NCBI GenBank assembly: GCA_944381935.1 | Contig: CALWMN010000017.1 | Location: 1 to 62,721, forward strand | Source: an uncultured Mediterraneibacter sp. | Lineage (GTDB): Bacteria > Bacillota > Clostridia > Lachnospirales > Lachnospiraceae | Direction of reading: 5' to 3' | Length of the DNA stretch: 62,721 nt | Shown: in pieces, positions 5,526-51,462 of the stretch | Numbering within the stretch: position 1 is the first letter of the stretch | Layout of the letters: every line of letters begins with the position of its first letter | Notes under the pieces: model-generated | Told to the model about the DNA's origin: nothing | The model's database searches: none | What the model saw: the letters and a program-made list of their open reading frames with translations, nothing else | Program-made: the position numbers and the translations under genes

Positions 5526-5553
5526 TTGCTGATAATAGCAGCATATTGTCTGA

Positions 5554-7052: not shown

Positions 7053-8750
7053 CTATATAAAGTTGTATTCTGTGAGTATCTTCTCACGCCCGGTCACAGT
7101 GTCCATGAAGTATTCATAGTAGCTGATTCCCAGGAAGGAGCCGGAAATATTGTAAATATTGTCAAATCCTCTTCCCTTCAGCGCCATGATGGCGTTATAG
7201 CTCCTCTGGCTTGTCCTGCAGTGCAGGTATACCGGACGGTCTTTTGGAATCTCCGAAGTTCTCTGCCGCAGTTCTCCAAGAGGGATATTCACCGCGCCTT
7301 TGAGATGGCCTTCGTCGAATTCCTCCGGCGTTCTCACATCGATGATGCAGGCGCCGCTTTCCACAAGTCCTCTGACATCGCTTACATGAACCTGCTTAAA
7401 GACTCCGTGGAGCACATTGAGCGCCACCAGTGCAGCAAGATTCACGATGTCCCTGGCAGTGCCAAATACCGGCGAATAGCAGAGCTCCAGTTCCTTTAAG
7501 TCCTCCAGAGTTCCGTTCATGGTGATCATTGTCGCAATGACATCGATCCGTTTGTCCACATTTCCCGTGCCGATGGCCTGGGCGCCGAGAATTCTTCCCG
7601 TGGGAACCTCATACACAAGCTTGAAGTGTACCGGTGCGCTTCCCGGCATGATTCCTACTTTGTCCATAGCCATGGTGTAGACAGAATCACAGGGGATTCC
7701 GTTCGCTTTCGCGGTCTTTTCGTTCAGTCCCGTCGCGGCTGCATTCATGCCGAATACCCGTACCGCGCAGGAACCGATCACCCCTTTGTTCGTTCCGCCT
7801 ATACCGTAAATGGCGTCCGCCGCGGTTCTTGCCTGGCGAAGGGCAGGTCCTGCCAGAGGAAGCTTTGCCGGCCTGTGCGTCAGGCTGTTGTATACTTCGA
7901 TGGCGTCTCCCACCGCATAAATGTGCGGATCACTTGTACAGAAATCTGCCGATACTTTGATGGCTCCGGTTTCGCCCAGTTCCAGTCCGGCGTCTTTGGC
8001 AAGAGCCGTCTCAGGCATTACGCCGATCGCCAGAACTACCACATCCGCGGGAATTTCCCTGCCGGAAACAAGAGTTACGTGATCTTCGGCAATCGCCTTT
8101 ACGCCGTCGCCCAGGAATAACTCCACGCCGTTGTCGAGAAGCTCCTTGTGAAGAATCTGGCTCATGTCGTAGTCGAAAGGAGCCATGACCTGATCGGCTG
8201 CTTCCACAACTGTGACATGCTTCCCTGCCTCTTTTAAGTTCTCCGCAACTTCCAGACCGATGAAACCGCCGCCGATGACAGCTACATTCTCCCGTCCTTC
8301 CTGCCTTGCGTACCGGTCCAGATTTACAATGTCGTTGACATTGCGGACCGTAAATACGTGTGGCAGAGATACCCCCTCGATGGATTTCGGGCGGATCGGA
8401 CTGGCACCGGGGGAAAGAACAAGCGTGTCGTAGGATTCTTCATATTCTTTTCCGGCGATCCTGTCTCTGACACGAATCTTTGCCGCTTCCCGGTCAATGG
8501 AGAGGACTTCGCTGTTCGTCCTTACTTCGATGTCATAGGAAGAACGAAATCCTTCCGGCGTCATCATCAGAAGATAATCCGCATCTTCAACTGTTCTGCT
8601 CAGGTAATAAGGAAGAGAGCAGTTGGAGAATGATACATGTTCTCCTCTCTCAAAAATGGTTATAGATGCATCTGCATCCAGACGTCTGATTCTGGCGGCT
8701 GCGGAGGCGCCCCCTGCCACACCGCCTACAATAAGTATCCGTTTACCCAT
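7053..8750 (-). CDS. cdr: CoA-disulfide reductase with C-terminal rhodanese domain
   Basis: A 565-residue FAD/NAD(P)H pyridine nucleotide-disulfide oxidoreductase with a rhodanese domain (CoADR-RHD type), able in known relatives to reduce CoA disulfide, CoA persulfide or polysulfide. The FAD Rossmann motif GGVAGG is at 9-14 and the single redox Cys at 44 (SFSNCSLPYY), as in one-cysteine CoADRs. The NAD site VIGGGFIGLE follows near 155-165, and the rhodanese loop YLHCRTSQRS carries Cys511. It lies 16 bases after patB and upstream of tcyP, so it is probably cotranscribed. The context suggests it handles persulfide or disulfide produced when cystine is cleaved. The exact substrate cannot be read from sequence. 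Confidence 0.88.
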   Translation of the reverse strand: MGKRILIVGGVAGGASAAARIRRLDADASITIFERGEHVSFSNCSLPYYLSRTVEDADYLLMMTPEGFRSSYDIEVRTNSEVLSIDREAAKIRVRDRIAGKEYEESYDTLVLSPGASPIRPKSIEGVSLPHVFTVRNVNDIVNLDRYARQEGRENVAVIGGGFIGLEVAENLKEAGKHVTVVEAADQVMAPFDYDMSQILHKELLDNGVELFLGDGVKAIAEDHVTLVSGREIPADVVVLAIGVMPETALAKDAGLELGETGAIKVSADFCTSDPHIYAVGDAIEVYNSLTHRPAKLPLAGPALRQARTAADAIYGIGGTNKGVIGSCAVRVFGMNAAATGLNEKTAKANGIPCDSVYTMAMDKVGIMPGSAPVHFKLVYEVPTGRILGAQAIGTGNVDKRIDVIATMITMNGTLEDLKELELCYSPVFGTARDIVNLAALVALNVLHGVFKQVHVSDVRGLVESGACIIDVRTPEEFDEGHLKGAVNIPLGELRQRTSEIPKDRPVYLHCRTSQRSYNAIMALKGRGFDNIYNISGSFLGISYYEYFMDTVTGREKILTEYNFI

Positions 8751-8766
8751 GTTTCACTTCCTTTTG

Positions 8767-9963
8767 TTATTCCAGTCCGTTTAATTCTTTCAGGTTTTTG
8801 ATAAGGCTTTCTACCGCTGCCTTGATATACTTCGTATCCGTAGCGAGATTGATGCGGATAAATCCGTGGCCGGTATAGCTGAACCACTCGCCTACATCAC
8901 ACGCCAGACGGCATTTCTTCTGAACAAATTCTTCCACTTTTGTTCCGTCAATATAAGCTCTCAGATCAATCCAGGAGAGATAAGTCCCCTCCAGCGGTGT
9001 TACGACAATCTTCGGGAGAGCTTTTGCAAACTCGCCTTTCATATAGTCGTAGTTGTGGCAGATTAGAGCCTTGACGCCCTCGAACCATTCTTCGCCGCCG
9101 CGGTACGCTGCTTCCATGCCGACCAGTCCCATCACGTTCGCCTCCGGGGAACCGATGCTCTGGATATATTTGTCATAGATCTCCATCAGTTTCTCATCAT
9201 AGATGATTACATGGGAGTGAATCAGTCCGGCCAGGTTGAATGTCTTGGATCCGGAATTCAGCAGGATCAGCATATCCTTGTAAGCGCCGTCTTTCAGATT
9301 GGAAGAAGATATGAATTTATTGTCTCCGAAGACGAAATCCTGATGAATCTCATCGGAAACTACCAGTACTCCATGTTTTCGGCAGATATCAAACATTTTT
9401 ACCAGTTCTTCTTCCGTCCATACACGGCATACCGGATTGTGGGGGGAACAGAGGATAAAAAGTTTTACGTCGTTTTCTGCGATTTCCTTTTCAAATTTGT
9501 CGTAATCCAGAGTGTAGTATCCGTCGTTGTTATCCAGTTCAACCGTGACCAGCTTCCTGCCGGAGTTCAGCACTGCATCATAGAACGGATAATATACGGG
9601 GGAGCAGATAATTACGGCTTCCTCCTCCTTTGTATATGCTCTTACCGCTGCATACAGGGAACCGACCACACCGGTTGCAAAGCGCACATTTTCTTTGGCA
9701 ATGTCCATGTTGTGATGCTTTTTCTGCCATGCAAAAAATGCCTCATAATAGGAATCTTCCACCTTGCCGTAACCGAATACGCCGTGCTGTACACGTTTCG
9801 TCATCGCATCGATCACAGACTGCGGACAGCGGATTTCCATGTCGGCAACCCACATCGGCAGAAGATCAGCATCCCCGAAAATCTCTTCGAGAGAATCCCA
9901 CTTTAATGTGCCCGTACCTTTTCTTTCCACACAGTTTTCGCGGCAATACTTCTCAAAATCCAT
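8767..9963 (-). CDS. patB: MalY/PatB-type cystathionine beta-lyase
   Basis: A fold-I PLP enzyme of about 398 residues that cleaves C-S bonds in cystathionine or cystine, giving pyruvate, ammonia and thiol or persulfide. Markers are LPMWVADMEI near the start, YYPFYDAV, CSPHNPVCRVW, SDEIHQDFV and the PLP lysine in NSGSKTFNLAG near residue 240. The ATG at 9963 is preferred to the GTG at 9975 because AAAGGGTGA sits just upstream of it. It is the first gene of the cystine operon, behind a near-consensus promoter (10034-10062) with a palindrome over the start site. Confidence 0.88.
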   Translation of the reverse strand: MDFEKYCRENCVERKGTGTLKWDSLEEIFGDADLLPMWVADMEIRCPQSVIDAMTKRVQHGVFGYGKVEDSYYEAFFAWQKKHHNMDIAKENVRFATGVVGSLYAAVRAYTKEEEAVIICSPVYYPFYDAVLNSGRKLVTVELDNNDGYYTLDYDKFEKEIAENDVKLFILCSPHNPVCRVWTEEELVKMFDICRKHGVLVVSDEIHQDFVFGDNKFISSSNLKDGAYKDMLILLNSGSKTFNLAGLIHSHVIIYDEKLMEIYDKYIQSIGSPEANVMGLVGMEAAYRGGEEWFEGVKALICHNYDYMKGEFAKALPKIVVTPLEGTYLSWIDLRAYIDGTKVEEFVQKKCRLACDVGEWFSYTGHGFIRINLATDTKYIKAAVESLIKNLKELNGLE

Positions 9964-10004
9964 ACTTACAATCACCCTTTCTCTTATAAAATTTTTACGG
10001 AAAA

Positions 10005-10024
10005 TCAGAAAAATTGTTTTCTGA
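10005..10024. promoter_or_regulatory. Candidate operator at the patB transcription start
   Basis: TCAGAAAA, four bases, then TTTTCTGA: a perfect 8-bp inverted repeat just downstream of the patB -10 box, where a bound repressor would block transcription. The divergent MarR protein is the natural candidate to bind it (inference). Confidence 0.55.
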
Positions 10025-10033
10025 ATAAACTAT

Positions 10034-10062
10034 ATTATAAAATGAGTTGTGAAATATGTCAA
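10034..10062 (-). promoter_or_regulatory. Sigma-A promoter of the patB-cdr-tcyP operon
   Basis: On the minus strand TTGACA (10062-10057), 17 bases, TATAAT (10039-10034): both boxes match the consensus exactly. Confidence 0.85.
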
Positions 10063-10124
10063 TTACTCTTTTTAATTTAAACGAAAAACCGTTATTTTGA
10101 ATAAAAAACGAGCGCAATTTAATA

Positions 10125-10153
10125 AAAAATAGTTTTTAGACTTAACTATTTTT
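10125..10153. promoter_or_regulatory. AT-rich inverted repeat in the patB/marR intergenic region
   Basis: AAAAATAGTT, nine bases, AACTATTTTT: a perfect 10-bp inverted repeat between the divergent promoters. It is a second possible regulator site, though the AT-rich background makes this weaker evidence. Confidence 0.4.
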
Positions 10154-10249
10154 ACAATGGGATGCCATATGAGAAAAGAATAGCAGATCAGAACTTTCCC
10201 GCCAAGATAAAATACGGATAAAAATCAAATAACGAAAATATCGAAAATC

Positions 10250-10278
10250 TTGAAACGGAATTTTATATATGATATGAT
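10250..10278 (+). promoter_or_regulatory. Promoter of the marR-type gene
   Basis: TTGAAA (10250-10255), 17 bases, TATGAT (10273-10278), about 60 bases before the start codon. Confidence 0.6.
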
Positions 10279-10338
10279 TGAAAACACTGAAGTTTAGAAT
10301 GTCAGATAAATCAGGTTAAGCAGGAGAAGAATGACAGA

Positions 10339-10818
10339 ATGGAACATTTTTCAGATATCAATAAGATGTATAAAAAGCTGAACGTGAGGGCAGATATGAT
10401 CTATGAATTTGTAATTCTGTATCACAATTATATCTATGCCCAGCATACATATGAGGCGGAAAACTGCAACATGATGGAAATACACACCCTTACATATATT
10501 GATGACAGCCCGGGAATCACAGCCACAGAGCTCTCCAAAATATGGCATAAAAGTAAAAGCGCCATTTCCCAGACGATAAAAAAGCTGATCAATTCCGGTT
10601 ATGTGGAAAAAAAGTATCTGGAAAACAATGAAAAGACAGCGCGTCTGTTTACTACGGAGAAGGGACATCAGCTCTCCAATGTCCACAAGGCTTATGACGT
10701 GGCGGATATCATGCAGACAACGGCTTATCTTGTGGAACAGTGCAGCGAGGAGGATCTGGATGCGTTTTACCGGATACTGGAGCAGTATATCGGGCTGCTG
10801 AAATCGGAAATACAGTGA
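10339..10818 (+). CDS. MarR-family transcriptional regulator
   Basis: A 159-residue winged-helix dimeric regulator. The DNA-binding domain spans about residues 55-115 (SPGITATELSKIWHKSKSAISQTIKKLINSGYVEKKYL, then the wing ENNEKTARLFTTEKG). MarR proteins often sense small molecules or thiol oxidation. It is divergent from the cystine operon across a 375-base intergenic region with two inverted repeats, so it probably controls that operon. AGGAGA lies 11 bases before the chosen ATG; an earlier ATG at 10331 is out of frame and short. A terminator follows at 10893. Confidence 0.88.
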   Translation: MEHFSDINKMYKKLNVRADMIYEFVILYHNYIYAQHTYEAENCNMMEIHTLTYIDDSPGITATELSKIWHKSKSAISQTIKKLINSGYVEKKYLENNEKTARLFTTEKGHQLSNVHKAYDVADIMQTTAYLVEQCSEEDLDAFYRILEQYIGLLKSEIQ

Positions 10819-10892
10819 TGGCAGAAGTAAAATAAGTGTTAAGGTTGACAGCGTTACCGCATAAAATAAAAAAATAATAAAAGAAACTGCAG

Positions 10893-10932
10893 AAAAAATC
10901 TCTGGTGCCGGGAAGGTTTCGGAGATTTTTTT
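10893..10932 (+). terminator. Terminator after the marR-type gene
   Basis: AAAAAATCTC and GAGATTTTTT pair around a 19-base loop, ending in a T-run. Confidence 0.7.
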
Positions 10933-11062
10933 ATAAGAATCTGTGTTCTTTTGCGCAGAGGAGGAGTACGGAAAGATACTTTCAGAAATATTTCCGAAAA
11001 GAGAAATAAAATGCTATAATCGGATAAAAGATTCCTTTTTCGGAACTGATCAGGAGGTTACT

Positions 11063-11503
11063 ATGCTGAAAATTTATCTGGGACAGATGGAGGAAGCGAT
11101 ATATCATCCTCCGACATACTTTGACAACCGATATGAAGATGAATGGATTACAGAGAAACTTTCCGTTGAAATGATAAAAGATGTGGATAAATCAACCGTT
11201 GTCAGTGAACGTCTGATCGACAGCCCGGTACTTGGTCCGATTTCTGTAAAAGAATTATCAGGAGGAGTAAAAACATTGATCCTGATGGCGTTTGATAATT
11301 CAGATAATGTATTTAACGCATCTGTATGTGGTGACAACTATGCCAAATGGATTTTAAAGATTGCGGAGACGAAAGATCTCACAATTAATTTAAGACATAT
11401 TATGGATTTCGGCGATGGAGAATTTGAGGCTCAGATTCTTAATACGGGAGAAACTGTTCATAATATGTCAGAATTTATTGATATCGCCGGGGAGTATGTA
11501 TAG
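11063..11503 (+). CDS. DUF4869-type protein, first gene of a P-loop pair
   Basis: A 146-residue soluble protein with no signal or membrane segment, recalling DUF4869 proteins of gut Firmicutes (LKIYLGQMEEAIYHPPTYFDNRYEDEWI at the start, NLRHIMDF near the end). The function is unknown. The ATG at 11063 follows CAGGAGG, so the longer frame starting at 10943 is rejected. It ends 11 bases before the P-loop gene, and the two are probably cotranslated partners. A small substrate-recognition or signalling partner of that NTPase is one guess; nothing in the sequence fixes it. Confidence 0.65.
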   Translation: MLKIYLGQMEEAIYHPPTYFDNRYEDEWITEKLSVEMIKDVDKSTVVSERLIDSPVLGPISVKELSGGVKTLILMAFDNSDNVFNASVCGDNYAKWILKIAETKDLTINLRHIMDFGDGEFEAQILNTGETVHNMSEFIDIAGEYV

Positions 11504-11514
11504 GGGAAGCAAAG

Positions 11515-12372
11515 ATGAAAGAAAAACACAAGGTCATTATACAAAATAACAGACTGCATTATGAATTTGAGATAAAACGAAATATTACGATTATTCAGGG
11601 AGACAGTGCAACCGGGAAGACAACCCTGATCAATATGGTAAGACAAGCTGAAAACCTGGGAAAATCGAGTGGAATAGATGTTATCTGCGATGTACCGTGT
11701 AGAGTTCTGGATGGAAGAGAGTGGAAACTGCTCCTGGAAAATATGTCCGGAAATATTATATTTACTGATGAAGAAAATACTTTTATTAATACAGAAGAAT
11801 TCGCAGAAGCCATCCGTGGGTCGGATAATTATTTTGTACTGATAACCAGAGAAAATCTTTATAACCTGCCATACAGTATTGACGAAATATATGGACTGCA
11901 TTCATCGGGCAAATACCAGAATACGAAAAAAATACATCAGGAGATGTACAGAATTTATTCTAATATTGAAGAGTTTCCTGTAAAACCAGAGAAGATTATT
12001 ACAGAGGATTCAAATTCGGGATATGATTTTTTCTGCGCTGTCAGTGAAGAAAAGCAGATCGAATGTGAAAGCGCAGGAGGAAAATCAAATATATTTTCAT
12101 GTATAAAAGAAAACAGCGGAGAAGAAATATGTGTCATCGCAGATGGGGCTGCAATTGGTCCTGAAATGAATCGGTTATATAAACAGGCACAAAAAATGAA
12201 AAATATCAGGCTCTTCCTGCCGGAATCCTTTGAGTGGCTGATCTTGAAATCCGGACTGATTGGTGGTAGAGAAATAAAAAAGATTTTGGAGACGCCGGAA
12301 AATTATATTGACAGTAAAGATTTTTTTAGTTGGGAAAGATATTTTACCCGACTTTTTAATAGAGAAGACTGA
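11515..12372 (+). CDS. P-loop NTPase partner of the DUF4869-type protein
   Basis: A 285-residue protein that is not a member of any ATPase group I can name. It has a clear Walker A motif GDSATGKTT at 29-37 after a short beta-rich start, and a possible Walker B at NIIFTDEEN (80-88). The C-terminal half (about 130-285) has no recognised motif and is rich in Lys, Glu and Ile. No membrane segments. It lies 11 bases downstream of the DUF4869-type gene with AGGGGA before its ATG. Base composition is more AT-rich than the housekeeping genes, which hints at an accessory module. A regulatory, toxin-like or defence role is possible but unsupported. Confidence 0.6.
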   Translation: MKEKHKVIIQNNRLHYEFEIKRNITIIQGDSATGKTTLINMVRQAENLGKSSGIDVICDVPCRVLDGREWKLLLENMSGNIIFTDEENTFINTEEFAEAIRGSDNYFVLITRENLYNLPYSIDEIYGLHSSGKYQNTKKIHQEMYRIYSNIEEFPVKPEKIITEDSNSGYDFFCAVSEEKQIECESAGGKSNIFSCIKENSGEEICVIADGAAIGPEMNRLYKQAQKMKNIRLFLPESFEWLILKSGLIGGREIKKILETPENYIDSKDFFSWERYFTRLFNRED

Positions 12373-12506
12373 AGACTCATATTTAAAATATCAAAAGTCC
12401 AGGTTAAACAAAGCGTATCTTCATGGAAAAAACAAGGAGATGATCCTTAAAAGTATGGAAGGTATTGAGTTATAGAAGGATAATGAACACTATGGGAGGA
12501 AGTAAT

Positions 12507-12992
12507 ATGAGACTTTTTATCGCAATCGATCTCTCGGAAGAGATGAAAAAATCTCTCGTCGGCTGTAAGCACAATCTGAAAAAACAGGGCGTGGAGGGCA
12601 ATTACGTCCCTGCGCAGAATCTTCATATGACCCTTGCCTTTATCGGGGAGTATGACGATCCGGCAAAGGTAAAATCTGTAATAGACAGAGTGCCGCTCAC
12701 TCCGTTTCGTTTAAGCCTCTCGGAATCCGGAAACTTCGGAAATATTCTGTGGGCGGGAGTGAAAGGCAACCAGAAGCTGAAGACATATGTGAAGGAATTG
12801 AGAGAAGCTCTGGCGGCGGAGGGGATACCTTTTGAAAAGGACAAATTTGTTCCTCATATTACGCTGATCCGGAAGACCTCTGCAAAAAGAACGTATCAGG
12901 TGCATATGCCGAAAGCGGATATGATGGTGAAGAAGGCGTCGCTGATGAAGTCAGAGCAGAGAAACGGGAAAGTGGTTTATAAAGTGCTGTAA
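12507..12992 (+). CDS. thpR: RNA 2',3'-cyclic phosphodiesterase (2H family)
   Basis: A 161-residue 2H phosphoesterase of the ThpR/LigT type, which opens 2',3'-cyclic phosphate ends of RNA. The two signature motifs are present: HMTL at 40-43 and HITL at 117-120, each supplying a catalytic His and Thr. The start at 12507 has GGGAGGA seven bases upstream and gives the family's RLFIAIDLSEE beginning. It stands after the P-loop gene with a 134-base gap holding no other gene. Confidence 0.88.
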   Translation: MRLFIAIDLSEEMKKSLVGCKHNLKKQGVEGNYVPAQNLHMTLAFIGEYDDPAKVKSVIDRVPLTPFRLSLSESGNFGNILWAGVKGNQKLKTYVKELREALAAEGIPFEKDKFVPHITLIRKTSAKRTYQVHMPKADMMVKKASLMKSEQRNGKVVYKVL

Positions 12993-13008
12993 GCCGAAGG
13001 AGTCTGCT

Positions 13009-13572
13009 ATGTCAAAAGTGATAAGTATCGGAAGGCAAAGTTTTGAAGAACTGATTAAAAATGACTGCTTTTATGTTGATAAGACAGGTCTGATCAAAGA
13101 ATGGTGGGAATTGCAGGATGATATTACGCTGATTACCCGACCGCGCCGCTTTGGAAAAACCTTGAATATGGATATGATGAAGTGCTTTTTTTCAAACCGG
13201 TATGCACAGAGGGAGAATCTGTTCTCCAGTCTTTCCATCTGGAAACTATGAGTATGTTTTCCGCAATGTTTCAGGGGTGGTTCAGCAGTTTTGACGGAGA
13301 AAATCATCCGTCCGGGAAAATGCAGCCGGAAAAATTGCACGCTGTGAAAGCTATCACTAAGAGTCTGAAAAGACCAGACTCAAGTGCCTGCTTTTATCAT
13401 GGTTTTGTTCTCGGAATGTTGGTGGAACTGCGGGACCGCTATGAAGTAAAATCAAACGCAGATTGAAAAGAAAAAATATGACAAGGAACTGATAGAAAAG
13501 GGATTTACACAAAACAGGATTCGGCGCAGATGTTTTGTGTCGAAAAAGAGAATCGTTGCAGATTTTATGCGA
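13009..13572 (+). pseudogene. AAA-ATPase-like/DUF1703 family protein, internally deleted
   Basis: Three pieces of one protein family lie in order but in different frames. The N-terminus, at 13009-13251, reads SFEELIKNDCFYVDKT and TRPRRFGKTLNMDMMKCFF, the usual P-loop region. A piece at about 13377-13460 reads YHGFVLGMLVELRDRYEVKSN, normally some 400 residues further on. The tail at about 13463-13570 reads KYDKELIEKGFTQNRIRR. Most of the central region is missing. These genes are abundant, fast-decaying paralogues in gut bacteria, linked to PD-(D/E)XK nuclease-like domains. No activity is expected from this copy. Confidence 0.8.
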
Positions 13573-14915
13573 CGAAAAGGAATATCGTCGCAAATATTCT
13601 GCGACGATTTTATACTATACTCAGAGGTGAGATAGGATGAAAGAAGGCATATACAGGAGTACTGATATGATGCCGGATCCGTACATGTTGCATCACTCAC
13701 TTTATAGGCGTCAGATGCAACCATCTGATCATAGATATGGACGTGCGGGGCACTGTAAAAATATTTTATACTGCCGTCAAAAGGATCAAAAATCTTTGCT
13801 TCTGATAATGGCGAACCTTCAATTGCAGATGCGGATGCTTCGTCTGCACCAACCGACACATCGGTCAGTCCGCCTTCAGACGGTTCAAGCGTAAAGGAAT
13901 TTCCCGCGCCAAGCGCGACAATGTTTCCTTTTGCAGTAACAGTAGAATCTCCTTGAATCAAAAGACTGTCCGCTGCCCAGATTCCCCAGTCCGCTGTTGA
14001 TTCAGCAGTCACCGTACTGTCTGTCAAAGTAATATTCGGAGCCTGCAGGGCAGGATAATAAGCCGTCGCTGTGAACCCACTTTCTGAAATCAAAATTTCG
14101 CTGCTGTTTACCCAGATACCATGTCCGGTTTCAGACCTGACGTTAAGCTCGCTATCGCCAGTTACCGATATTTTCCCTTCTACCCAGATTGCAGCATCCC
14201 CATATACAGATGAAGTGCTGGCATCGACCTGAGAATTTGTGATTGAAATGTCTGCATTAGAGACAATTGCGTTGTAACTGTCGGATGAAAACATATTTGC
14301 TTTCACGGTACTGTCTGAGATTGAAATACCCTTACCTGCGGTTAATCCGGATTCTCCTGTACTGGATACGTCGCCGTTTAACTCTACATAAGCGCCGTTA
14401 AAAATTTCCAGTATGCCTTCTGCATGAATCCCCATCCCCTCAAATGGTGCGAGGCTCTTCGCATTAACATATAATTTGGCCCCGTCAACAGTGATATTTC
14501 CACCCGCCCCATTTCTGATCCCGGCATAAACACAGTTTATCGTAAGCGTCCCATCTCCCTGGATCGTAAGCGTCCCGGAACTGCCTAAAATCCCATAAGA
14601 CGCAGGCACGTCAATACTGTTTTCGCCAATTAATACAATCGTCAGATCCCCGTTCCCATATGAAATCCCGCCACTGGTATTCCCCGGGACTGCGTCTGTG
14701 ATGGATGCATTATCCAAAGTCAAAATGTTTTCTGTTTCATCATATTCAGCGCGTCCGTTCCCGCAACTGACAACCCGTCCCGGAGCTGCAAGAATATCCT
14801 CGCCATTTACTGTGAGAGTGCCGGGCCCTGCCGCATTTGCCTCTGACGGCATAAGTCCCGCGATGACTACAATCGACAACGATAGTATAAAATTTCTGAT
14901 TTTCTTTGTTTTCAT
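13452..14915 (-). CDS. Secreted beta-helix/carbohydrate-binding-like protein, 3' truncated
   Basis: An exported protein beginning with a clear signal peptide (hydrophobic IRNFILSLSIVVIAGLM, cleavage after ANA). Residues 40-360 are a run of short repeats of the G-x-L-x-I-x-G-x-S/T type with many ITDS/ISDS steps, as in right-handed beta-helix or DUF4353-like carbohydrate-binding proteins. Near residue 415 it enters the motif HVHIYDQ..DATCTDPASYQYSC, usually the start of a Cys-rich repeat in Clostridia surface proteins. After YSC (about 13640) the frame continues through unrelated sequence antisense to the AAA remnant. The native C-terminus and any anchor have therefore been lost by recombination. 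The start has AGGAGGG upstream. Confidence 0.7.
   Translation of the reverse strand: MKTKKIRNFILSLSIVVIAGLMPSEANAAGPGTLTVNGEDILAAPGRVVSCGNGRAEYDETENILTLDNASITDAVPGNTSGGISYGNGDLTIVLIGENSIDVPASYGILGSSGTLTIQGDGTLTINCVYAGIRNGAGGNITVDGAKLYVNAKSLAPFEGMGIHAEGILEIFNGAYVELNGDVSSTGESGLTAGKGISISDSTVKANMFSSDSYNAIVSNADISITNSQVDASTSSVYGDAAIWVEGKISVTGDSELNVRSETGHGIWVNSSEILISESGFTATAYYPALQAPNITLTDSTVTAESTADWGIWAADSLLIQGDSTVTAKGNIVALGAGNSFTLEPSEGGLTDVSVGADEASASAIEGSPLSEAKIFDPFDGSIKYFYSAPHVHIYDQMVASDAYKVSDATCTDPASYQYSCICLLSSYLTSEYSIKSSQNICDDIPFRRIKSATILFFDTKHLRRILFCVNPFSISSLSYFFFSICV
13585..13612 (+). terminator. Hairpin after the AAA-ATPase remnant
   Basis: TCGTCGCA and TGCGACGA pair around a 7-base loop, followed by TTTTAT. 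A further copy of TGCGACGA lies just upstream at 13568. Confidence 0.55.
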
Positions 14916-38785: not shown

Positions 38786-38963
38786 GTAAGAAACAAGCAA
38801 GGGCAGAACCTCAAAAAATCGGCTCTGCCCAAAGTAACTAATGACATATCTTATATCTGTTTTTTCAGTTTTGATGAAAATTGAAACGGTCTCAAAATAA
38901 ATGGAACGAACATTTTGGCTCAAAAAAGGCAAAAAAATGCATAATATATTCTCTTTTCTTAAG
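38786..38963. other. Non-coding stretch with one hairpin
   Basis: GGGCAGA and TCTGCCC pair (about 38803-38834) around a loop containing a T6 tract on the minus strand. No gene was recognised between the regulator remnant and tRNA-Cys. Confidence 0.4.
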
Positions 38964-39035
38964 AGGCGCAGACCGGATTTGAACCGGTGAATCAGGGTGT
39001 TGCAGACCCACGCCTTACCACTTGGCTACTGCGCC
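38964..39035 (-). tRNA. tRNA-Cys(GCA)
   Basis: A full cloverleaf is readable on the minus strand: acceptor GGCGCAG/CTGCGCC, D-arm AGCCAAGTGGTAAGGC, anticodon loop with GCA (TCTGCAACA), T-arm CCGGTTCAAATCCGG and discriminator T. CCA is not encoded. Confidence 0.95.
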
Positions 39036-44466: not shown

Positions 44467-44510
44467 GACAGTAACCTCCTGCTTTTACAGTGTTACTGTC
44501 CCGTTTTTTG
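44467..44510 (+). terminator. Terminator after the M18 aminopeptidase gene
   Basis: GGACAGTAAC and GTTACTGTCC pair around a 16-base loop, then CGTTTTTTG. The right arm overlaps the end of the convergent SGNH gene. Confidence 0.85.
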
Positions 44511-45449
44511 TTTCACTTCCGTATCAAATTTTTCTGCCAGCGTATTCCATGAGGAATACGCCGCGTCATTCCTCCGGTCAGGAAGCCCGTAATTCTCTTT
44601 CAGATATTTTCCCAGATAAGCTGTAACCTTCTGCGCCCCGTGTATATTCAGGTGATCGCCGCCGTCATAGCTGTCTTTAGACCAGTCCATCCCGATCTCC
44701 TCCGCTTTCAGATTCATATCGACGTACGGGATACCGTTTTGCTTTGCATAGTGCCGGAGGGCATTGATTTTCTTATAATTGTAATTCTTCGGAGAGGGCA
44801 CACTCACCATGAGAAGCTGCGCTCCGTTCCTCTCACAGAGGTCCTGGATCCTGCGCATGTAGAATCTGACAAACTCCGGCAGTTCCTGCATTTCTCCGGT
44901 TTCTTTCATATATTCCGCGCCTTTGCATGATGTAATCTTCTCCTTTATGACAAACCCTTTGTAGTCCGATGTCATCTCCTTCGGCTCATCCAGCAGAAGC
45001 TTCCACAGATTATGGTAACGGAAAACGGGCAGGTAATACCGAAGCGGCTCCGCAAGAGAGATCTGTGCGTTCTTAAAAATACCCGGATCCCGGAACATCA
45101 TATTCGTCTCCACCATCACAACTTTGGGTGACTGTGTACGAAATGCGGTCTTCAGCATATAATATGCCTCCTGTATTCTCTGCCCGCCCTGCCCGCAGAC
45201 ATACGAAGCAGTCCCATACTGCTTCCACAGATCCATCGTGGACACTGACGTATAGCTTTCACTGTCGCCTACGACAAGAAGATCCACCGTATCTCCCTCC
45301 TCAGCGGTAATCCCTGCCACCGGGCGGTTCCTTCCCTGGACGCGGTCTGCCATGCCGGCGGCAAGGGCGGAAATCCATATCGACGCCAGAAACAGCAGTA
45401 CCAGCAGCACGGTAAAAAATAAAACTCCTTTTTTCAACATTTTTCCCAT
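44493..45449 (-). CDS. SGNH/DltD-like membrane-anchored protein
   Basis: A 318-residue protein with an N-terminal membrane helix (about 8-30) and an extracytoplasmic SGNH-hydrolase-like domain. The nucleophile motif VVGDSESYTS (Ser63) and the terminal Asp-x-x-His-like DGGDHLN (Asp265, His266) are visible. YVCGQGGQRIQEAYYMLK and KVVMVETNMMF fit the fold used by DltD and AlgJ/AlgX-like proteins. In Dlt systems DltD helps move D-alanine from the MBOAT onto teichoic acid. Here it ends a five-gene operon, 12 bases after the MBOAT gene. Which bond it makes or breaks is unknown. Confidence 0.78.
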   Translation of the reverse strand: MGKMLKKGVLFFTVLLVLLFLASIWISALAAGMADRVQGRNRPVAGITAEEGDTVDLLVVGDSESYTSVSTMDLWKQYGTASYVCGQGGQRIQEAYYMLKTAFRTQSPKVVMVETNMMFRDPGIFKNAQISLAEPLRYYLPVFRYHNLWKLLLDEPKEMTSDYKGFVIKEKITSCKGAEYMKETGEMQELPEFVRFYMRRIQDLCERNGAQLLMVSVPSPKNYNYKKINALRHYAKQNGIPYVDMNLKAEEIGMDWSKDSYDGGDHLNIHGAQKVTAYLGKYLKENYGLPDRRNDAAYSSWNTLAEKFDTEVKQKTGQ

Positions 45450-45461
45450 CTGTCTGTCACC

Positions 45462-47051
45462 TCAAAATCCTGCATAGATCAAATCAACCGATTGATATCC
45501 GTCCCCGTACGCCGCAAACACAATCACTGCCAGAATGAGCGCATAATAGGCGCCCCACCGTACCGGTACAGAAGTCTTTACAAGTCTTACAAAAATCGGT
45601 TCTCCGCGTTCCTTTAGCGAGCCGATCACAGCGACCACAACACAGCCAACCGCAACCGCGGCCAAATCCGCCCTTCCAAGGCCAAGCCCCAAAAGAGAGC
45701 CGTCCCACAGCAGACTAAGCTGAAAATCCCGGAACATACTTGCAAACATATGGAATCCTGCCTGCAGACCGTCTGCCCTGAAAAAGAGTTCCCCCACAAA
45801 GATAATGACCCACGTCTTTGCAATCTGAATCACCCTCCAATAACCGGAGTCCTCTCTGATATGGCAGACGGAGAGCAGTTTGTTCCGGGCAGGCTGCACC
45901 GCTGTCCCGAGCATGATCAGGACGAAATAATACATCCCATAAAAAATGTAACTCCATCTCGCACCGTGCCATAATCCGTTGCACAGCCAAACCGGGAACA
46001 GTGCCGCCGCAGACGTGACGAGCCTTGTCAGATATTTTCCGGCGTGCTTTCGCCCGAATTGGTTCCAGCGCTTCACAATTCCCGATACCGATACCGGGTA
46101 GAAAATATAGGACTTGAACCAGGTTCCGAGCGTGATGTGCCAGCGTCTCCAGAACTCCGACGCGCTCCGCGCACAGAAAGGCTGCCTGAAATTCTCCGGC
46201 AGGCAGACGCCGAACAGTTTCCCGCTTCCGATCACAATATCCATACATCCTGAGAACTCCATGTAGAGCTGGACCGTATAGGCTACGGCCGCAACGGCGA
46301 TATACGCTCCTCCATACTCCGTATAATTTCCGAAGATCACGCCCACAATCACTGCCAGCCGGTCCGCGACCACCTTTTTCTTAAACAATCCCCAGAAGAT
46401 CCGCATATATCCCTGTGACAGATTCTCTGCCGTAAGCGGTGCCCCGGCAAAGAGGCTGCCTGCCGTATCCGAATACCGGCAGATCGGACCTTCCATGATC
46501 TGGGGAAAGAATCCGAGGAAAAGCGCCATCCTTCCAAACCGGTTCTCCGCTTTGGCCTTCCCCCAGTATACATCTGCCATGTAGCCGATTGCCTGAAGCG
46601 TATAAAAGGAAATCCCAACCGGCATCAGAAGACTCTTTTCTCCCGGGGAAAACGGAAGGGAAAGCCATAACAGGACGCCTGACACATTGCTGATAAAGAA
46701 ATTGTAATATTTCAGGTACGCAAGCACACCAATCAGCAGCAGGATACCAACGGCAAGAGCAGATCTGCATCTGCGTCGATATTTTAGCTTTATGCTCTTC
46801 TTTGTCTCTCTGTCTGCACCGGAGAGTTCTTCGGCTTCCTGCGCTCTCTGCCAGGACATCCAGGCCCCGATATAATGAGTCAGGGCCGTTGCTCCGACCA
46901 GATACACAAGGAGTTTCCCGCTGAGCAAATAGAAGAACAAGTAACTGAAGAAAAGCAGCGCTTTCCACCGCCATTTTGCCGGCATAAGCTGATATACGAC
47001 AAGGCATACCGGCAGAAAGACAAAGACGTAAAGCGAAGTATGATATCCCAT
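45462..47051 (-). CDS. MBOAT O-acyltransferase, DltB/AlgI-like
   Basis: A 529-residue polytopic membrane acyltransferase with about 11 hydrophobic segments. The two conserved MBOAT regions are present: SEFWRRWHITLGTWFKSYIFYPV (His305) and the catalytic WLCNGLWHGARWSYI (His362). LMPVGISFYTLQAIGYMADVYWG and MEGPICRYSD are typical of DltB/AlgI. It would carry an acyl or aminoacyl group from a carrier protein across the membrane onto a surface polymer. Its start lies four bases after the carrier-protein gene, so the two are probably cotranslated. Confidence 0.88.
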   Translation of the reverse strand: MGYHTSLYVFVFLPVCLVVYQLMPAKWRWKALLFFSYLFFYLLSGKLLVYLVGATALTHYIGAWMSWQRAQEAEELSGADRETKKSIKLKYRRRCRSALAVGILLLIGVLAYLKYYNFFISNVSGVLLWLSLPFSPGEKSLLMPVGISFYTLQAIGYMADVYWGKAKAENRFGRMALFLGFFPQIMEGPICRYSDTAGSLFAGAPLTAENLSQGYMRIFWGLFKKKVVADRLAVIVGVIFGNYTEYGGAYIAVAAVAYTVQLYMEFSGCMDIVIGSGKLFGVCLPENFRQPFCARSASEFWRRWHITLGTWFKSYIFYPVSVSGIVKRWNQFGRKHAGKYLTRLVTSAAALFPVWLCNGLWHGARWSYIFYGMYYFVLIMLGTAVQPARNKLLSVCHIREDSGYWRVIQIAKTWVIIFVGELFFRADGLQAGFHMFASMFRDFQLSLLWDGSLLGLGLGRADLAAVAVGCVVVAVIGSLKERGEPIFVRLVKTSVPVRWGAYYALILAVIVFAAYGDGYQSVDLIYAGF

Positions 47052-47055
47052 CTTG

Positions 47056-47283
47056 TCAGTTCTCCTGAAGCCTCTTTACCATAGCCCAGATCGCCTCTGC
47101 CGAATTAAAATTCTGAGGCGTCATTTCCGCCGCTTCAATTGTAATGCCAAACGCTTCCTCAAGCTCTGATACGAGTGTGATCACACCAAAGGAATCCAGG
47201 ATCTGGCCGTCGATCAAAGCCGTCTCCTTCCCATAGTCTACACTGTCGTCTATATCCCTTAAAATTCTTATCAAATCTTCCAT
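47056..47283 (-). CDS. Acyl/peptidyl carrier protein, DltC-like
   Basis: A 75-residue carrier protein with the phosphopantetheine attachment site DGQILDSFGVITL (Ser31) and helix-rich ends (LVSELEEAFGITIEAAEMTPQNFNSAEAIWAMV). It would hold the activated amino acid as a thioester between the adenylating enzyme and the MBOAT. It sits between the decarboxylase and MBOAT genes. That arrangement suggests its cargo is the decarboxylase substrate, as with BtrI/BtrK in butirosin biosynthesis (analogy). Confidence 0.88.
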   Translation of the reverse strand: MEDLIRILRDIDDSVDYGKETALIDGQILDSFGVITLVSELEEAFGITIEAAEMTPQNFNSAEAIWAMVKRLQEN

Positions 47284-47316
47284 TTGTCATTTTCCTCTCT
47301 TTCTTTTGATTGTCTG

Positions 47317-48507
47317 TCAAAGCGCTTCTCCCGGCATGTTCACCGGATATGTATCCTGCTTCTGCCTTAAGATCCTCCATCCTTCCCGTTCCTCATACGA
47401 AACGGCTCCCGGAAGAGGATGGCTCAAGAAAAGCGCCATGCCCTCCATCGAAGAATATGCCCCTGTCCGCCCAAACACCAGCACTTTTCCCGTCTTGATC
47501 CCGGGCAGGCTGATGTCACGGCACAGCACGTCATTCACCGTGCACAGCGCCCCGCAGACCGTCCACTTCTTCGGCTGTCCTAAGTTCTCCCCCGGCAGGA
47601 CATCCACATACGGCTCGTACATCCCTTTGATCTGTCCATCATAATTTATCTGATGGTTTCCGCCATCTACAATACAGTACCGCACCTCGCCGTTTTTCTT
47701 GATATCCTGGACCTCGGTCAGATAGTATCCGCACATTGCCGTAAACGCACGTCCCATCTCCACCGTGATCCTTCCCTTCCACTGCATCTGTCCAAAGAGC
47801 TCCGCCAGTCTCTGAAATCCGTCGTCGCGGAAAGTCTCCGCCTCTTTTCCCCTGAAATAGGGTACTGCTGTCCCGGGTCCGTACTCCAGGCTTCTTACTT
47901 CAAACTGATGATTCTCTTTCAGCCTTCGGAAAAGCTCATCCAGATAACAGATCTCCTTTTCCAACTGCTTCAGCGTCCTTTTCTGTGTACCGGAAAAGTA
48001 ATGGATTCCCTCAATCTCAAGATACGGGCTCATATTTACCAGCTCAATAATGCTCAAAAGCGTTGCCTCGTCCATACCAAACTGATTGCCGCTGGTCAGT
48101 CTCAGATACAGCCCTATTGTGACCGCATGCGCATCGCTCCACTCTGCCAGATAGTGAAACTGCCTGACAGATTCCACAGTATATCTGCTCCTTTCCCCGC
48201 ACTGGCCCAGTATTGCAAAAAGATCCTCCTTTTTCTTGAGCACACCGGATATCAGCAGCCTCTCCGGCGGGATCCCAAGCGTCCTGCATATTTCATATTC
48301 CCCTCTGGAGCACACCTCGATGCGGTCCGTATATTCTGCCATCCTTTCTGTCAGAAACGGATTTGCCTTCATCGCATAGCACAGTGATATCTCCGGTCCA
48401 AGTGCGGCGCTTATCCTCTCTGCCTCCTCCCTTAACATGTCCAGGTCGTAGACATACAGAGGGGTTCCGTAGCGTGCCGCGGCATATTCTAACTGTTCCT
48501 TTCTCAT
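47317..48507 (-). CDS. Fold-III PLP decarboxylase, BtrK/LysA-like
   Basis: A 396-residue alanine-racemase-fold PLP enzyme of the DAP/ornithine decarboxylase superfamily. The PLP lysine is in CYAMKANPF (Lys47). IEVCSRGEYE, IEGIHYFSGTQ, EYGPGTAVPYF and VEMGRAF fit the barrel. The second-subunit motif reads GALCTVNDVLCRD (Cys322), i.e. CTxxD rather than CESxD of DAP decarboxylase. From memory, CTxxD marks carrier-linked or atypical members such as BtrK and the exosortase-associated group. FGRTGAYSS gives the PLP-phosphate Tyr region. It overlaps the adenylation gene by four bases (ATGA). Racemisation instead of decarboxylation cannot be excluded. Confidence 0.8.
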   Translation of the reverse strand: MRKEQLEYAAARYGTPLYVYDLDMLREEAERISAALGPEISLCYAMKANPFLTERMAEYTDRIEVCSRGEYEICRTLGIPPERLLISGVLKKKEDLFAILGQCGERSRYTVESVRQFHYLAEWSDAHAVTIGLYLRLTSGNQFGMDEATLLSIIELVNMSPYLEIEGIHYFSGTQKRTLKQLEKEICYLDELFRRLKENHQFEVRSLEYGPGTAVPYFRGKEAETFRDDGFQRLAELFGQMQWKGRITVEMGRAFTAMCGYYLTEVQDIKKNGEVRYCIVDGGNHQINYDGQIKGMYEPYVDVLPGENLGQPKKWTVCGALCTVNDVLCRDISLPGIKTGKVLVFGRTGAYSSMEGMALFLSHPLPGAVSYEEREGWRILRQKQDTYPVNMPGEAL

Positions 48508-50039
48508 GGCATTTCTGCTCCCTTTCTCTGAAAATAGCCCCGGTCCGTCTTTCCATTTTTATTAAGAGGTATAAAGGCAGTTTTCCTGATCCTGGACGGG
48601 ACCATATAAACAGGAACCTTTTCTTTCATCCTTGCGCGCACCTCCCCGGGTATGGCATCTCCCATATAAAATCCGACAATCCGGTTACGCTCCTCATCAA
48701 ACACACAGCAGCTTCCCATCACACCCTCCACTCTGTTCATTGCCGCCTCTATTTCCTCCAGCTCTATCCTGTGTCCCATGTGCTTAATCTGGAAATCCCT
48801 GCGCCCTGCGAAAACGAGTTCTCCCTCTTCATCATAGAATCCGATATCTCCGGTCTTGTACGTCCACTCTTTCTCGTCCCCGTTCTGGTACAGTACGAAC
48901 CTTTTCTCCGTCTGCTCCTGGTCATGGTAATACCCTTGCGACACGGATTCTCCGGATACCCAGATTTCTCCATGCTCTCCTGCAGTGAGGATCTCCTGCC
49001 CGCTTTCATCAACCAGAAAGACCCGCCTGCCTGGGAAGGCACGTCCGATCGGTATCTTTTCCCCGTCAGAGAACTGGCGGCTGACCGGATAATATGTACA
49101 GTTGCATGTGATCTCCGTTGGACCATACAGGTTCACAAACCGGGCATTTTTCAGCGCCTCCTGCCATTTCCTGAGATGCATGGGCGGCATTGCCTCTCCG
49201 CTGAACAGTACCTTGTCCACACGTTCGGGGATGCGGTATTCCAACCCCCGGAGCGCTGACACAAGGCCAAGCGCCGACACTGCCCATATAAGCGTCGTAA
49301 CCTTCTGCTCACACAGATGGTCCAGAAGCCGCGGAGGCGTTGAAAAGTATTCTCTGGGGATCAGGATCAGCGATGCTCCTGTCATAACGGCTGAGTAGAT
49401 ATCTTTTACGGATACGTCAAAGTCAAATGGCGCCTGGTTCCCTATTCTGTCCGCTTCTGTAATCTCAAAAATTTCCGTAAAATGGCCCAGGAACCTGATC
49501 ACAGCGTCATGGCTGACTGCCACGGCTTTCGGCATCCCTGTAGAACCGGATGTGAACAGAGCATACAGCAGATCTGTCTCTTTGCCCATGCCTCTGATCT
49601 CCAGCAGCGCCTCTTCGTCAATCTCCTCTCTGAGAAGCTCCTCCGCTGTCACAACCAGACCATGCCGTTCCACCTGATCCAGAATCGCGCGCCCTGCTGT
49701 GTCCGTAACCACTACAGGAGCCTCCAGGGTGCGTATGATTTTTTCCATCCGGTCCAGGGGATTCGCCGGATTCACCGGCACGTAAAAGCATCCCGCATAT
49801 ACGACTCCAAGCATGACGGCAAGGGTCACGGAGCTTTTCTCCATCAGCACCGGGATCGGATTGCCCGGCGACACTCTCCTGCCAAGCCCGCTTCCAATTT
49901 GCTTTGCCATCAGGAGCAGCTCATGCCATGTCAATGCCAGATGCCCGTCGTCCACAGCCATCTTGTATCTGAACCGTTCTTCAGTCTGTTCCAGATATTC
50001 GAGGATATTGCCTTTCACCTTCCTGCTGTTTTCCTCCAT
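48504..50039 (-). CDS. Amino-acid adenylating enzyme, DltA/NRPS A-domain-like
   Basis: A single adenylation domain of about 511 residues. Core A3 LFTSGSTGMPKAV lies at about 161-173, and A4 FDFDVSVKD at about 205-213. Its Asp (FDVS) matches the residue that grips the alpha-amino group, so the substrate should be an amino acid. A5 LYGPTEITCNCTYYP, A7 YKTGDIGFYDEEGELVFAGRRDFQIKHMGHRIELEEIE and A10 PLNKNGKTDRGYF (catalytic Lys near 497) follow. It would load the neighbouring carrier protein. Side-chain specificity is not readable. The ATG at 50039 has AGAGG ten bases upstream; the GTG at 50051 abuts that site. First gene of the operon. Confidence 0.85.
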   Translation of the reverse strand: MEENSRKVKGNILEYLEQTEERFRYKMAVDDGHLALTWHELLLMAKQIGSGLGRRVSPGNPIPVLMEKSSVTLAVMLGVVYAGCFYVPVNPANPLDRMEKIIRTLEAPVVVTDTAGRAILDQVERHGLVVTAEELLREEIDEEALLEIRGMGKETDLLYALFTSGSTGMPKAVAVSHDAVIRFLGHFTEIFEITEADRIGNQAPFDFDVSVKDIYSAVMTGASLILIPREYFSTPPRLLDHLCEQKVTTLIWAVSALGLVSALRGLEYRIPERVDKVLFSGEAMPPMHLRKWQEALKNARFVNLYGPTEITCNCTYYPVSRQFSDGEKIPIGRAFPGRRVFLVDESGQEILTAGEHGEIWVSGESVSQGYYHDQEQTEKRFVLYQNGDEKEWTYKTGDIGFYDEEGELVFAGRRDFQIKHMGHRIELEEIEAAMNRVEGVMGSCCVFDEERNRIVGFYMGDAIPGEVRARMKEKVPVYMVPSRIRKTAFIPLNKNGKTDRGYFQRKGAEMP

Positions 50040-50128
50040 GTCTCTTTTCACCTCTTCTGATCTTCTTTGACTTCATTTGCTGTTTTACATGTCCACTTTC
50101 ATGGATGTGCCCTATTATTACATACTGG

Positions 50129-50331: not shown

Positions 50332-51462
50332 TTATACCATCTGATATCTGTTTTCACAGATTTCACATCTTATCCGGTCGCCCAGATCTGCCACCGTGTA
50401 GTATAATTCCATGCCGGACGCCGGATATCCGTCCGGGAAATAACTCTTGCCCCAGAAAATCGGGTTGATCAGTTCCAGGTCATTTCTTGAGAACCCTCCT
50501 TCTTCCTCCTGCTTATAATACTCGAGAAACCCTCCGTAATACTGTCTCGCAAGTCCCGGGATATCCTGGCTGACGGCTCCGCCCGATAAGTAACCCTCCT
50601 GTCCGCTTTCTCCTGCGGCCGAACGGTCAGAGCCGTATCTTTCAAATGTCTCCCCCGTTTTCCATGCCCCTTCTGCCAGAGTAAGCCGTGTGGTATCTTC
50701 CTCCATCTGATAATATTCAATCCCATAGTTTTGAGGGCTCCCTGTCCCCTTATATCGGAGCATATTATTCTCACAGACAGTATAGACCGTCTTTTCCTGC
50801 ACAGCTTCTTCCTTTCGGGACTCTGTACCGGCCTGGAAGACAAATTTCTGTACTTCTCCGTCTGCATACCCATACATATCCACAATATGATAGTCACACG
50901 GGAGTGTCTCTATATACTGGGAGATCAACAGTTCCGGCGTCCCGTCTCCGCTCAGGTCCAGCATTCTGGCAATATCCGAAATTTTCATCTCATCGTAATA
51001 ATACGCCAGAACAACCGTTCTTTGTTCCTCTGGCAGATCACGGATGAAGCCCTCTATCAGGCGCACCTCTTCCTCTCTCGCCATCCGCTCTTCCGCGCCC
51101 TTCTCTTCATCCGGGATCTCTTCAAATATTTCTTCCTGATCTTCTCGCAGCAGGACATTTCTTTTCTTTTTATTGAGAAGTTTTATGCCTTGCCGGTATG
51201 TGATTGCCGCAAGCCAGGAAAGCACCTTGGCCGAATCTTTCAATGACCGCATGTTTTTATAAGCGGCAATATATACCTCCTGCATCAGGTCCTGTGCCTC
51301 ATCGTCATCATGAACGGTAAACCTTGCCCTGGAATATACAAACTGATAGGTTTTTTGATACAATGGCACAAATGCTGATTCATCCCCATTTTTCAGCCTT
51401 TCTGCCAGTATTTTCAGTTCCTCCGGCCGGTTGACATATCTCTTGCGGCTCTCTTCTCGCAT
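50332..51462 (-). CDS. ECF sigma factor fused to an unrelated C-terminal domain
   Basis: A 376-residue chimera. Residues 1-165 are an ECF sigma-70 factor: region 2 (DEAQDLMQEVYIAAYKNMRSLKDSAKVLSWLAAITYR) and the first half of region 4 (IRDLPEEQRTVVLAYYYDEMKISDIARMLDLS). Region 4 stops where EGTVKSRL should follow. The chain instead continues GDGTPELLISQYIETLP and some 190 residues with no sigma features, resembling the FN/SGDGTPELLI repeats of exported Clostridia proteins. The recognition helix for -35 DNA is therefore missing. An in-frame deletion joining two genes at LDxS-G/EGT microhomology is likely. It is last in an operon of surface proteins, with a terminator after it. Confidence 0.75.
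   Translation of the reverse strand: MREESRKRYVNRPEELKILAERLKNGDESAFVPLYQKTYQFVYSRARFTVHDDDEAQDLMQEVYIAAYKNMRSLKDSAKVLSWLAAITYRQGIKLLNKKKRNVLLREDQEEIFEEIPDEEKGAEERMAREEEVRLIEGFIRDLPEEQRTVVLAYYYDEMKISDIARMLDLSGDGTPELLISQYIETLPCDYHIVDMYGYADGEVQKFVFQAGTESRKEEAVQEKTVYTVCENNMLRYKGTGSPQNYGIEYYQMEEDTTRLTLAEGAWKTGETFERYGSDRSAAGESGQEGYLSGGAVSQDIPGLARQYYGGFLEYYKQEEEGGFSRNDLELINPIFWGKSYFPDGYPASGMELYYTVADLGDRIRCEICENRYQMV

Follow-up and report, generated by a model that had tools for sequence, protein, structure and literature searches.

A conserved Dlt-like operon with a putative carrier-acting decarboxylase in Lachnospiraceae: a candidate second pathway of surface aminoacyl modification

The window analyzed here is the whole 62,721-nucleotide contig CALWMN010000017.1 of an uncultured Mediterraneibacter sp. 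(Lachnospiraceae; assembly GCA_944381935.1), and the system in question is a tight operon of five minus-strand open reading frames (ORFs), encoding an amino-acid adenylation enzyme (A), a fold-III pyridoxal phosphate (PLP) enzyme, a carrier protein, an MBOAT acyltransferase and an SGNH protein, all with their catalytic residues kept. In the reading that we favor, and hold with moderate confidence for the chain as a whole, an amino acid would be activated and loaded onto the carrier, decarboxylated there, passed to Tyr526 in a shuttle motif of the MBOAT, and transferred outside the cell by the SGNH protein. Every step has a known relative, and the new part, as far as our literature search shows, is the combination of a decarboxylase acting on a carrier with an MBOAT-SGNH pair: neither the five-gene set nor a carrier-bound decarboxylase feeding such a pair was found described in the titles and abstract openings of open-licence literature. 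To our knowledge, carrier-bound amino acid decarboxylation has been known so far only from antibiotic biosynthesis.

The operon and its conservation

A first-pass annotation of this DNA had described five close-packed minus-strand genes with these domains, and all five are present; the end that it gave to the A gene, 50039, is an in-frame ATG, with a GTG start at 50051. The residues it had named are also in place (A4 Asp212, or Asp235 in GrsA numbering; Lys47 and C322-TVN-D326 in the PLP enzyme; Ser31 in the carrier; His305 and His362 in the MBOAT); it had overlooked the LIYAGF shuttle motif in which the MBOAT terminates. The A and PLP ORFs overlap by 4 bases, and the remaining gaps, in gene order, are 33, 4 and 12 bases.

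48504..50051, minus strand: stand-alone amino-acid adenylation enzyme, DltA-like (A); GTG start at 50051, in-frame ATG at 50039
47317..48507, minus strand: fold-III PLP decarboxylase of the BtrK/SbnH/LysA type; Lys47, Glu250, Arg253, Cys322, Asp326
47056..47283, minus strand: stand-alone acyl carrier protein (ACP); phosphopantetheine Ser31
45462..47051, minus strand: MBOAT acyltransferase; His305, His362; C-terminal extension with hydrophobic segments 461-479 and 495-513
45465..45482, minus strand: acyl-shuttle motif LIYAGF at the MBOAT C-terminus; residues 524-529, Tyr526
44493..45449, minus strand: SGNH protein with an N-terminal membrane helix; Ser63, Asp262, His266

Domain matches range from strong to marginal. 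The A protein matches AMP-binding at 3.8e-63 and exceeds the cut-off of TIGR01733, the general model for amino-acid adenylation (335.5 against 317.4), the MBOAT scores 45.3 against the PF03062 cut-off of 27, the carrier lies barely above the PP-binding cut-off (21.5 against 20.8), and the SGNH protein falls under its own (Lipase_GDSL_2, 24.3 of 32.9).

Conservation of the neighborhood, which the first-pass annotation had put forward as a check of its proposal, is extensive. Of 352 stretches matched in a genome scan, 336 were PLP relatives, and among the best 80 of these all five genes occur in 72 loci; five others have no SGNH match, and in the three short of other genes (L065, L076, L098) the contig ends within the locus. 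Under a stricter cut, 66 of the 80 still carry all five, always on the same strand and in four gene orders (53, 9, 3 and 1 loci). The PLP family was found in 86 of 397 Lachnospiraceae genomes (87 matches at E 1e-85 or better), with an A gene less than 4 kb from at least 79 of the 87 (median gap 18 bases), a lower bound since only part of the A places entered the comparison. Five of the eight other matches (L234-L238) hold all five genes, with the MBOAT-SGNH genes on the opposite strand in L234; L243 has PLP, carrier, MBOAT and SGNH genes on a contig that ends there, the A gene being at the margin of a different contig; L233 has a carrier, a split A and a PLP gene, with MBOAT and SGNH absent within 9 kb; and L239, with only a distant A gene, lacks the five-gene set. 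In a search from the A gene instead, the listing comprises 64 places scoring at least 698 bits, of which 40 were examined: a PLP gene is present in 40 of 40, and the full set in 31. Two genomes outside Lachnospiraceae (L240, L241) also hold all five genes. A phylum-level sample of 398 genomes contains four with the PLP gene, and two of these, from the window genome and one other, are Lachnospiraceae, which indicates that the system is concentrated in this family.

Two side observations concern individual loci. In several lineages, a response regulator and kinase-like pair immediately adjoins the operon on one side or the other (L110, 4450-6490; L070, L077, L084 and L087), the kinase-like ORF of L110 overlapping the A ORF. 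On a [Ruminococcus] faecis JCM 15917 contig (L014/L082), the reading frames of A, PLP and MBOAT are broken, by decay or sequencing error.

A second pathway beside dlt

The closest envelope system is DltABCD(X), responsible for teichoic acid D-alanylation, which likewise places an A enzyme, a stand-alone carrier, an MBOAT and an SGNH protein in a single operon; the window operon differs in its additional PLP decarboxylase, its other A pocket, and a longer MBOAT with its own shuttle. Could it nevertheless be an ordinary D-alanylation operon with the PLP gene as a bystander? Among envelope enzymes, A and MBOAT are indeed nearest to DltA and DltB, but all Dlt models are missed: A scores 278.9 of 559.85 (TIGR01734) and 283.6 of 476 (NF003417), the MBOAT 134 of 375 against the DltB model, the carrier 35.6 of 68 and 20 of 52.35 against the DltC models, and the SGNH protein has no match to the DltD model. 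Moreover, the same genome encodes a true dlt operon elsewhere:

L147 (G000:C4:120000-136000), 4683-8830, minus strand: dltABCD of the window's own genome, recognized by Dlt models

There, DltB, DltC and DltD exceed their cut-offs, and DltA passes NF003417 (509.2) but not TIGR01734 (491.4), this being the sole near-cut-off match to a DltA model among 41 relatives (491 bits; next 337). The A pocket of the window differs from that of this DltA, and PLP adjacency is conserved, so that an ordinary D-alanylation operon is highly improbable; we reject this reading on the failed models together with the real dlt. Since a separate dltABCD and a separate LysA-like gene are both present in the genome, the operon is, by its gene content, a predicted second pathway beside dlt, Dlt-like but not a Dlt member. 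Genes neighboring L147 look glycosyltransferase-like by eye.

Across the 397 Lachnospiraceae genomes, a true DltD is found in 19, and 80 of the 86 PLP genomes have no DltD match. The two occur together in six genomes, which is no departure from chance (Fisher p 0.27), and given this neutral co-occurrence we make no claim that the PLP operon replaces dlt.

The MBOAT with a fused shuttle and its SGNH partner

His305 and His362 are invariant in 28 of 28 MBOATs, and DltB is the sole match of the MBOAT profile among solved structures. PMC12148441 describes a six-residue acyl-shuttle motif (FXYXXF), which in Dlt systems sits on the separate DltX microprotein, with the donor delivered by a carrier protein, and which in carrier-less systems using acyl-coenzyme A (acyl-CoA) is fused to the MBOAT behind two extra membrane helices. 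The window MBOAT shows the latter layout: hydrophobic segments 461-479 and 495-513 are followed by LIYAGF, which has L in place 1 and is thus not a strict FXYXXF. A relaxed shuttle pattern is present in 143 of 148 MBOATs adjoining distinct A proteins, and of the five misses two lie at contig ends (L069, L094), one has interrupted frames (L082), and two have no explanation (L091, L210). The DltB of the same genome (L147), with 386 residues, has no C-terminal tail. Between the five genes of the operon there is no room for a separate DltX, the flanks being unsearched for ORFs shorter than 60 amino acids.

Compared with MBOAT-SGNH acetylation of the PatA/PatB type, the window operon has in addition a ligase and a carrier, while its fused shuttle resembles that of PatA as outlined in the same source (PMC12148441). 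With carrier and ligase present and the shuttle on the MBOAT, two designs held separate in this 2025 paper (PMC12148441) are combined, the predicted carrier-borne donor of Dlt being joined to a PatA-like fused shuttle. In L231, a PLP operon, the MBOAT tail reads QFIYNQF as in the racemase operons described below, and MBOATs may therefore swap between operon types.

The SGNH protein has a confidently predicted SGNH fold (mean predicted local distance difference test score, pLDDT, 94.8), its N-terminal helix spans residues 2-32, and Ser63, Asp262 and His266 are found in 31 of 31 sequences. The fold is generic: DltD comes at ranks 47-49 in the Foldseek results (E 4.1e-4 at rank 47) and is not among the 50 VIA-align matches listed for the model, and the SGNH profile has no match under E 0.1 among solved structures.

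The PLP enzyme

Lys47, Glu250, Arg253, Cys322 and Asp326 are invariant in 34 of 34 PLP proteins, and both decarboxylase domains of the window protein exceed their Pfam cut-offs (48.3 and 44.8 bits). The family profile ranks BtrK first, above LysA, and BtrK shares with the window enzyme both fold and catalytic residues. In butirosin synthesis, BtrK works on Glu-S-BtrI, according to PMC7857480; like VinO, for which the comparison is by description only, it acts on an amino acid held by a stand-alone carrier (Glu for BtrK, 3-methyl-Asp for VinO), and in the conserved loci the PLP gene adjoins a stand-alone carrier and the enzyme loading it. BtrK and VinO serve antibiotics, whereas the product of the window enzyme would go to an MBOAT-SGNH pair. 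Three observations favor the putative on-carrier decarboxylation: the BtrK-like sequence, the adjacency of A and ACP, and the A pocket shared with formyltransferase operons (see below).

For the first-pass annotation, a PLP protein grouping with ordinary LysA or alanine racemases would have refuted its proposal. Separation from LysA is borne out by the tree, in which the family forms its own clade; separation from racemases has domain scores behind it, the tree including no named racemase. The protein scores below the LysA model (TIGR01048, 161.6 of 297.9), but so does the genome's own LysA-like gene, located elsewhere (265), and the tree consequently outweighs the model score; a misplaced LysA is rejected on that separate gene and the distinct clade. 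An alanine racemase role is rejected on the weak Ala_racemase_N match (26.5 bits) together with the decarboxylase C-terminal domain and the Cys/Asp pair. The exosortase-A-associated ligase and decarboxylase models (TIGR03098/TIGR03099) are similar, at 182.7/148.6 bits, yet far under their cut-offs of 592/478 (478.45 for TIGR03099).

The adenylation pocket

The pocket of the window A protein comprises Asp210 (=233), Asp212 (=235), Val213, Lys216 (=239), Ser284 (=301), Cys316 and Asn317, the equated positions being in GrsA numbering. Positions 233, 235, 236, 239, 301, 330 and 331 are identical in the first 80 of 80 A proteins, the window's included; Asp212 is thus conserved throughout this set, from which a divergent PLP-linked set differs. 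A wider survey, with a threshold of 400 bits, covered 165 distinct A proteins. Here the PLP-linked proteins have Asp233 and Lys/Arg239 in 126 of 126 and Asp235 in 122, with Ile replacing it in four, one of which (L238) was also flagged for a formyltransferase that is by eye a housekeeping tRNA enzyme. Asp233, Asp235 and Lys239 are found in 6/6 formyltransferase-linked proteins, Tyr233, Asp235 and Lys239 in 13/13 racemase-linked proteins, and Tyr233 in 3/3 GNAT-linked proteins; proteins with none of the searched tailoring enzymes nearby split into 4 with Asp233 and 13 with Tyr233, and in one of those four (L171) a beta-eliminating-lyase-like gene lies immediately upstream. By these residues, the predicted pocket type tracks the tailoring gene of the operon. 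As a separate observation, five A enzymes of the operon's family (L148, L180, L189, L191, L192) have Ser in place of Asp235 and perhaps load a non-amino acid; in L148, a sodium/solute-symporter-like gene lies between A and carrier.

In the divergent set, the usual amine anchor Asp235 is gone while Asp233 and the basic residue at 239 are retained, from which we infer side-chain loading of Asp or Glu: Asp233 and Lys/Arg239 would grip the alpha-amino and alpha-carboxylate groups, and the side-chain carboxylate would be activated. This is the geometry that BtrK, VinO and other carrier-bound decarboxylases require. In the favored mechanism, the A enzyme would thus adenylate an acidic amino acid (L-Asp or L-Glu being the likeliest) via its side-chain carboxylate and load it onto the Ser31-phosphopantetheine of the carrier, where the PLP enzyme, acting as BtrK and VinO do, would strip the free alpha-carboxylate to leave a beta-alanyl (from Asp) or gamma-aminobutyryl (from Glu) group. 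The first-pass annotation had suggested a gamma-aminobutyryl (GABA) product, which is possible, with beta-alanine at least equally likely. Granted this mechanism, we put beta-alanyl at an even chance, gamma-aminobutyryl at somewhat less, and any other group as a minor prospect. The narrow preference for beta-alanyl comes from a pocket that looks small by eye and from the FlvN/VinN precedent with Asp-type substrates, FlvN taking Asp (PMC11284099).

Several observations weigh against this mechanism. In the PLP enzyme, the PLP-proximal His169 is variable and the phosphate-loop GGG is changed to GPG, and the tree places BtrK on the LysA side, apart from the family (support 87, with a very distant outgroup and a short search). 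Of the 126 PLP-linked A proteins, 122 retain Asp235, the residue that usually anchors the alpha-amine, and this would fit alpha-carboxyl loading as well, an objection softened by the statement in PMC11284099 that the conserved Asp also binds beta-amines. L039, with an A, an ACP and a more distant PLP relative, has a Tyr233 pocket and so breaks the Asp233 rule; a simpler alternative is that Asp233 reflects common descent. Nor is the A protein nearest to known beta-aminoacyl ligases, as GrsA (314 bits) and DltA (307-301) outscore the IdnL1/HitB-type entries (270-256); structures 5jjq and 5jjp are IdnL1 and CmiS6, and structure 6m01, also among the matches, bears the entry title beta-aminoacyl-ACP synthetase. 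Finally, PLP is not obligatory: the genome G062, which contributes one of the 64 top A places, has no PLP match. Its operon (L242, 5462-10880, minus strand) comprises MBOAT-SGNH-A-carrier and a transglutaminase-like gene, with a PLP-type A pocket, and therefore cuts both ways, PLP being dispensable there and the pocket kept in one more PLP-less operon.

Does the PLP enzyme act before or after loading? It might instead produce free beta-alanine, GABA or lysine, which A would then load unchanged; LysA and the ornithine/lysine decarboxylases of the same fold do use free amino acids, and fold scores do not separate BtrK from LysA for this protein. However, residues 233, 235 and 239 in ten PLP-less operons (six with formyltransferase, four with none of the searched enzymes) and in L242 are the same as in 122 of the 126, whereas a pocket that takes an omega-amino acid instead of a dicarboxylic one would be expected to differ. 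The VinN/VinO precedent from vicenistatin, in which thioester formation must come before decarboxylation (PMC11284099), points the same way, and decarboxylation ahead of loading is unlikely in our estimate. A lysyl ester, formed if meso-diaminopimelate were attached through its L end and lost the carboxylate of its D end, would be a strongly cationic decoration, and would suit a LysA-related enzyme and the canonical Asp235 of the 122 proteins. It is harder to reconcile with the higher score of BtrK over LysA, a stretch before QFGMDE that is shorter than BtrK's, the four PLP-linked A proteins lacking Asp235, and a pocket without obvious room by eye; we consider it improbable.

Sister operons with other tailoring enzymes

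Operons in which another tailoring enzyme takes the place of the decarboxylase are common in a hand-picked sample. A Formyl_trans_N protein over its Pfam cut-off occurs in 6 of 6 such loci, between A and carrier in L157, L159, L160, L161 and L162 and behind the carrier in L153, and the decoration would probably be N-formyl-aminoacyl. LgrA, the linear gramicidin synthetase, formylates a carrier-bound amino acid and thus offers a precedent for these variants; it is the top solved relative of A by whole-protein score, two A domains being summed (best single 300.6 bits), but it is a nonribosomal peptide synthetase and not an envelope enzyme, and the single-domain scores of TycA, GrsA and DltA are equal or higher. 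L164, L176 and L179 carry a GNAT acetyltransferase, and in L176 the MBOAT stands close by without being part of the operon chain. In 12 loci the gene immediately upstream of A encodes an Asp/Glu-type racemase, and in L178 the racemase is one gene removed from A (the full set being L149, L150, L167, L169, L172, L174, L175, L178, L182 and L184-L187, PLP-less and in most cases with MBOAT-SGNH). All 12 racemases scanned pass TIGR00035, 10 of these 12 also pass the CuyB cysteate racemase model, and the thirteenth (L187) passes Pfam Asp_Glu_race; these operons would probably add a D-acidic amino acid.

In a tree of A proteins (69 rows, quick method without bootstrap, the divergent PLP set and L242 excluded), all but one of the 32 PLP rows fall in a single clade (SH-aLRT 96), and the 11 racemase rows in another (99). 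A third clade of ten (SH-aLRT 100) unites five of the six formyltransferase rows, four rows with none of the searched enzymes, and the PLP operon L168 (ACP, MBOAT, A and PLP, with no SGNH match). Here the tailoring enzyme is swapped while the pocket is unchanged, which supports tailoring after loading. Taken together, these operons suggest a modular family, in which a fixed chassis (DltA-like ligase, carrier, shuttle MBOAT and SGNH protein) would be combined with a swappable tailoring enzyme setting the surface aminoacyl group, with cationic beta-alanyl or GABA, N-blocked, or D-acidic outputs, and with a decarboxylase form several times commoner in Lachnospiraceae than D-alanylation. To this joint reading we give an equal chance of being right or wrong.

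Acceptor and biological meaning

On the outer face, the MBOAT would pass the aminoacyl group to Tyr526 of its own LIYAGF shuttle, and SGNH Ser63 would accept it and esterify an extracellular acceptor, which the MBOAT-SGNH pair suggests to be a surface polymer. Synthesis of a secreted small molecule, or acylation of a glycolipid, would fit the scanned neighbors of the operon, among which no polymer genes were recognized and none points to a particular acceptor polymer, as well as the PLP relative in L039, which by eye lies in a natural-product-like cluster. The MBOAT-SGNH pair with its shuttle is, however, a polymer-acylation arrangement in PMC12148441, and leaves this alternative with a low probability. 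The L039 locus itself (6700-14681) holds A, carrier, a 39% PLP relative and, by eye, a UvrA-like protein, and resembles a natural-product pathway with the same kind of decarboxylase. Two further features of the window are:

50332-51462: ORF of an extracytoplasmic function (ECF)-type sigma factor just upstream of the operon; sigma part at residues ~15-171, the next ~200 residues without a Pfam match
38963-39035, minus strand: tRNA-Cys (gca)

If the proposed pathway is correct, it would unite carrier-borne donors, associated with DltX, and CoA donors, associated with an MBOAT-fused shuttle, as arrangements kept apart in PMC12148441. A common group of gut bacteria would then possess an overlooked surface chemistry, with a decoration unlike D-alanine, and the resulting change in surface charge would be relevant to antimicrobial peptides, to bile and to recognition by the host, in bacteria whose genomes for the most part have no dlt.

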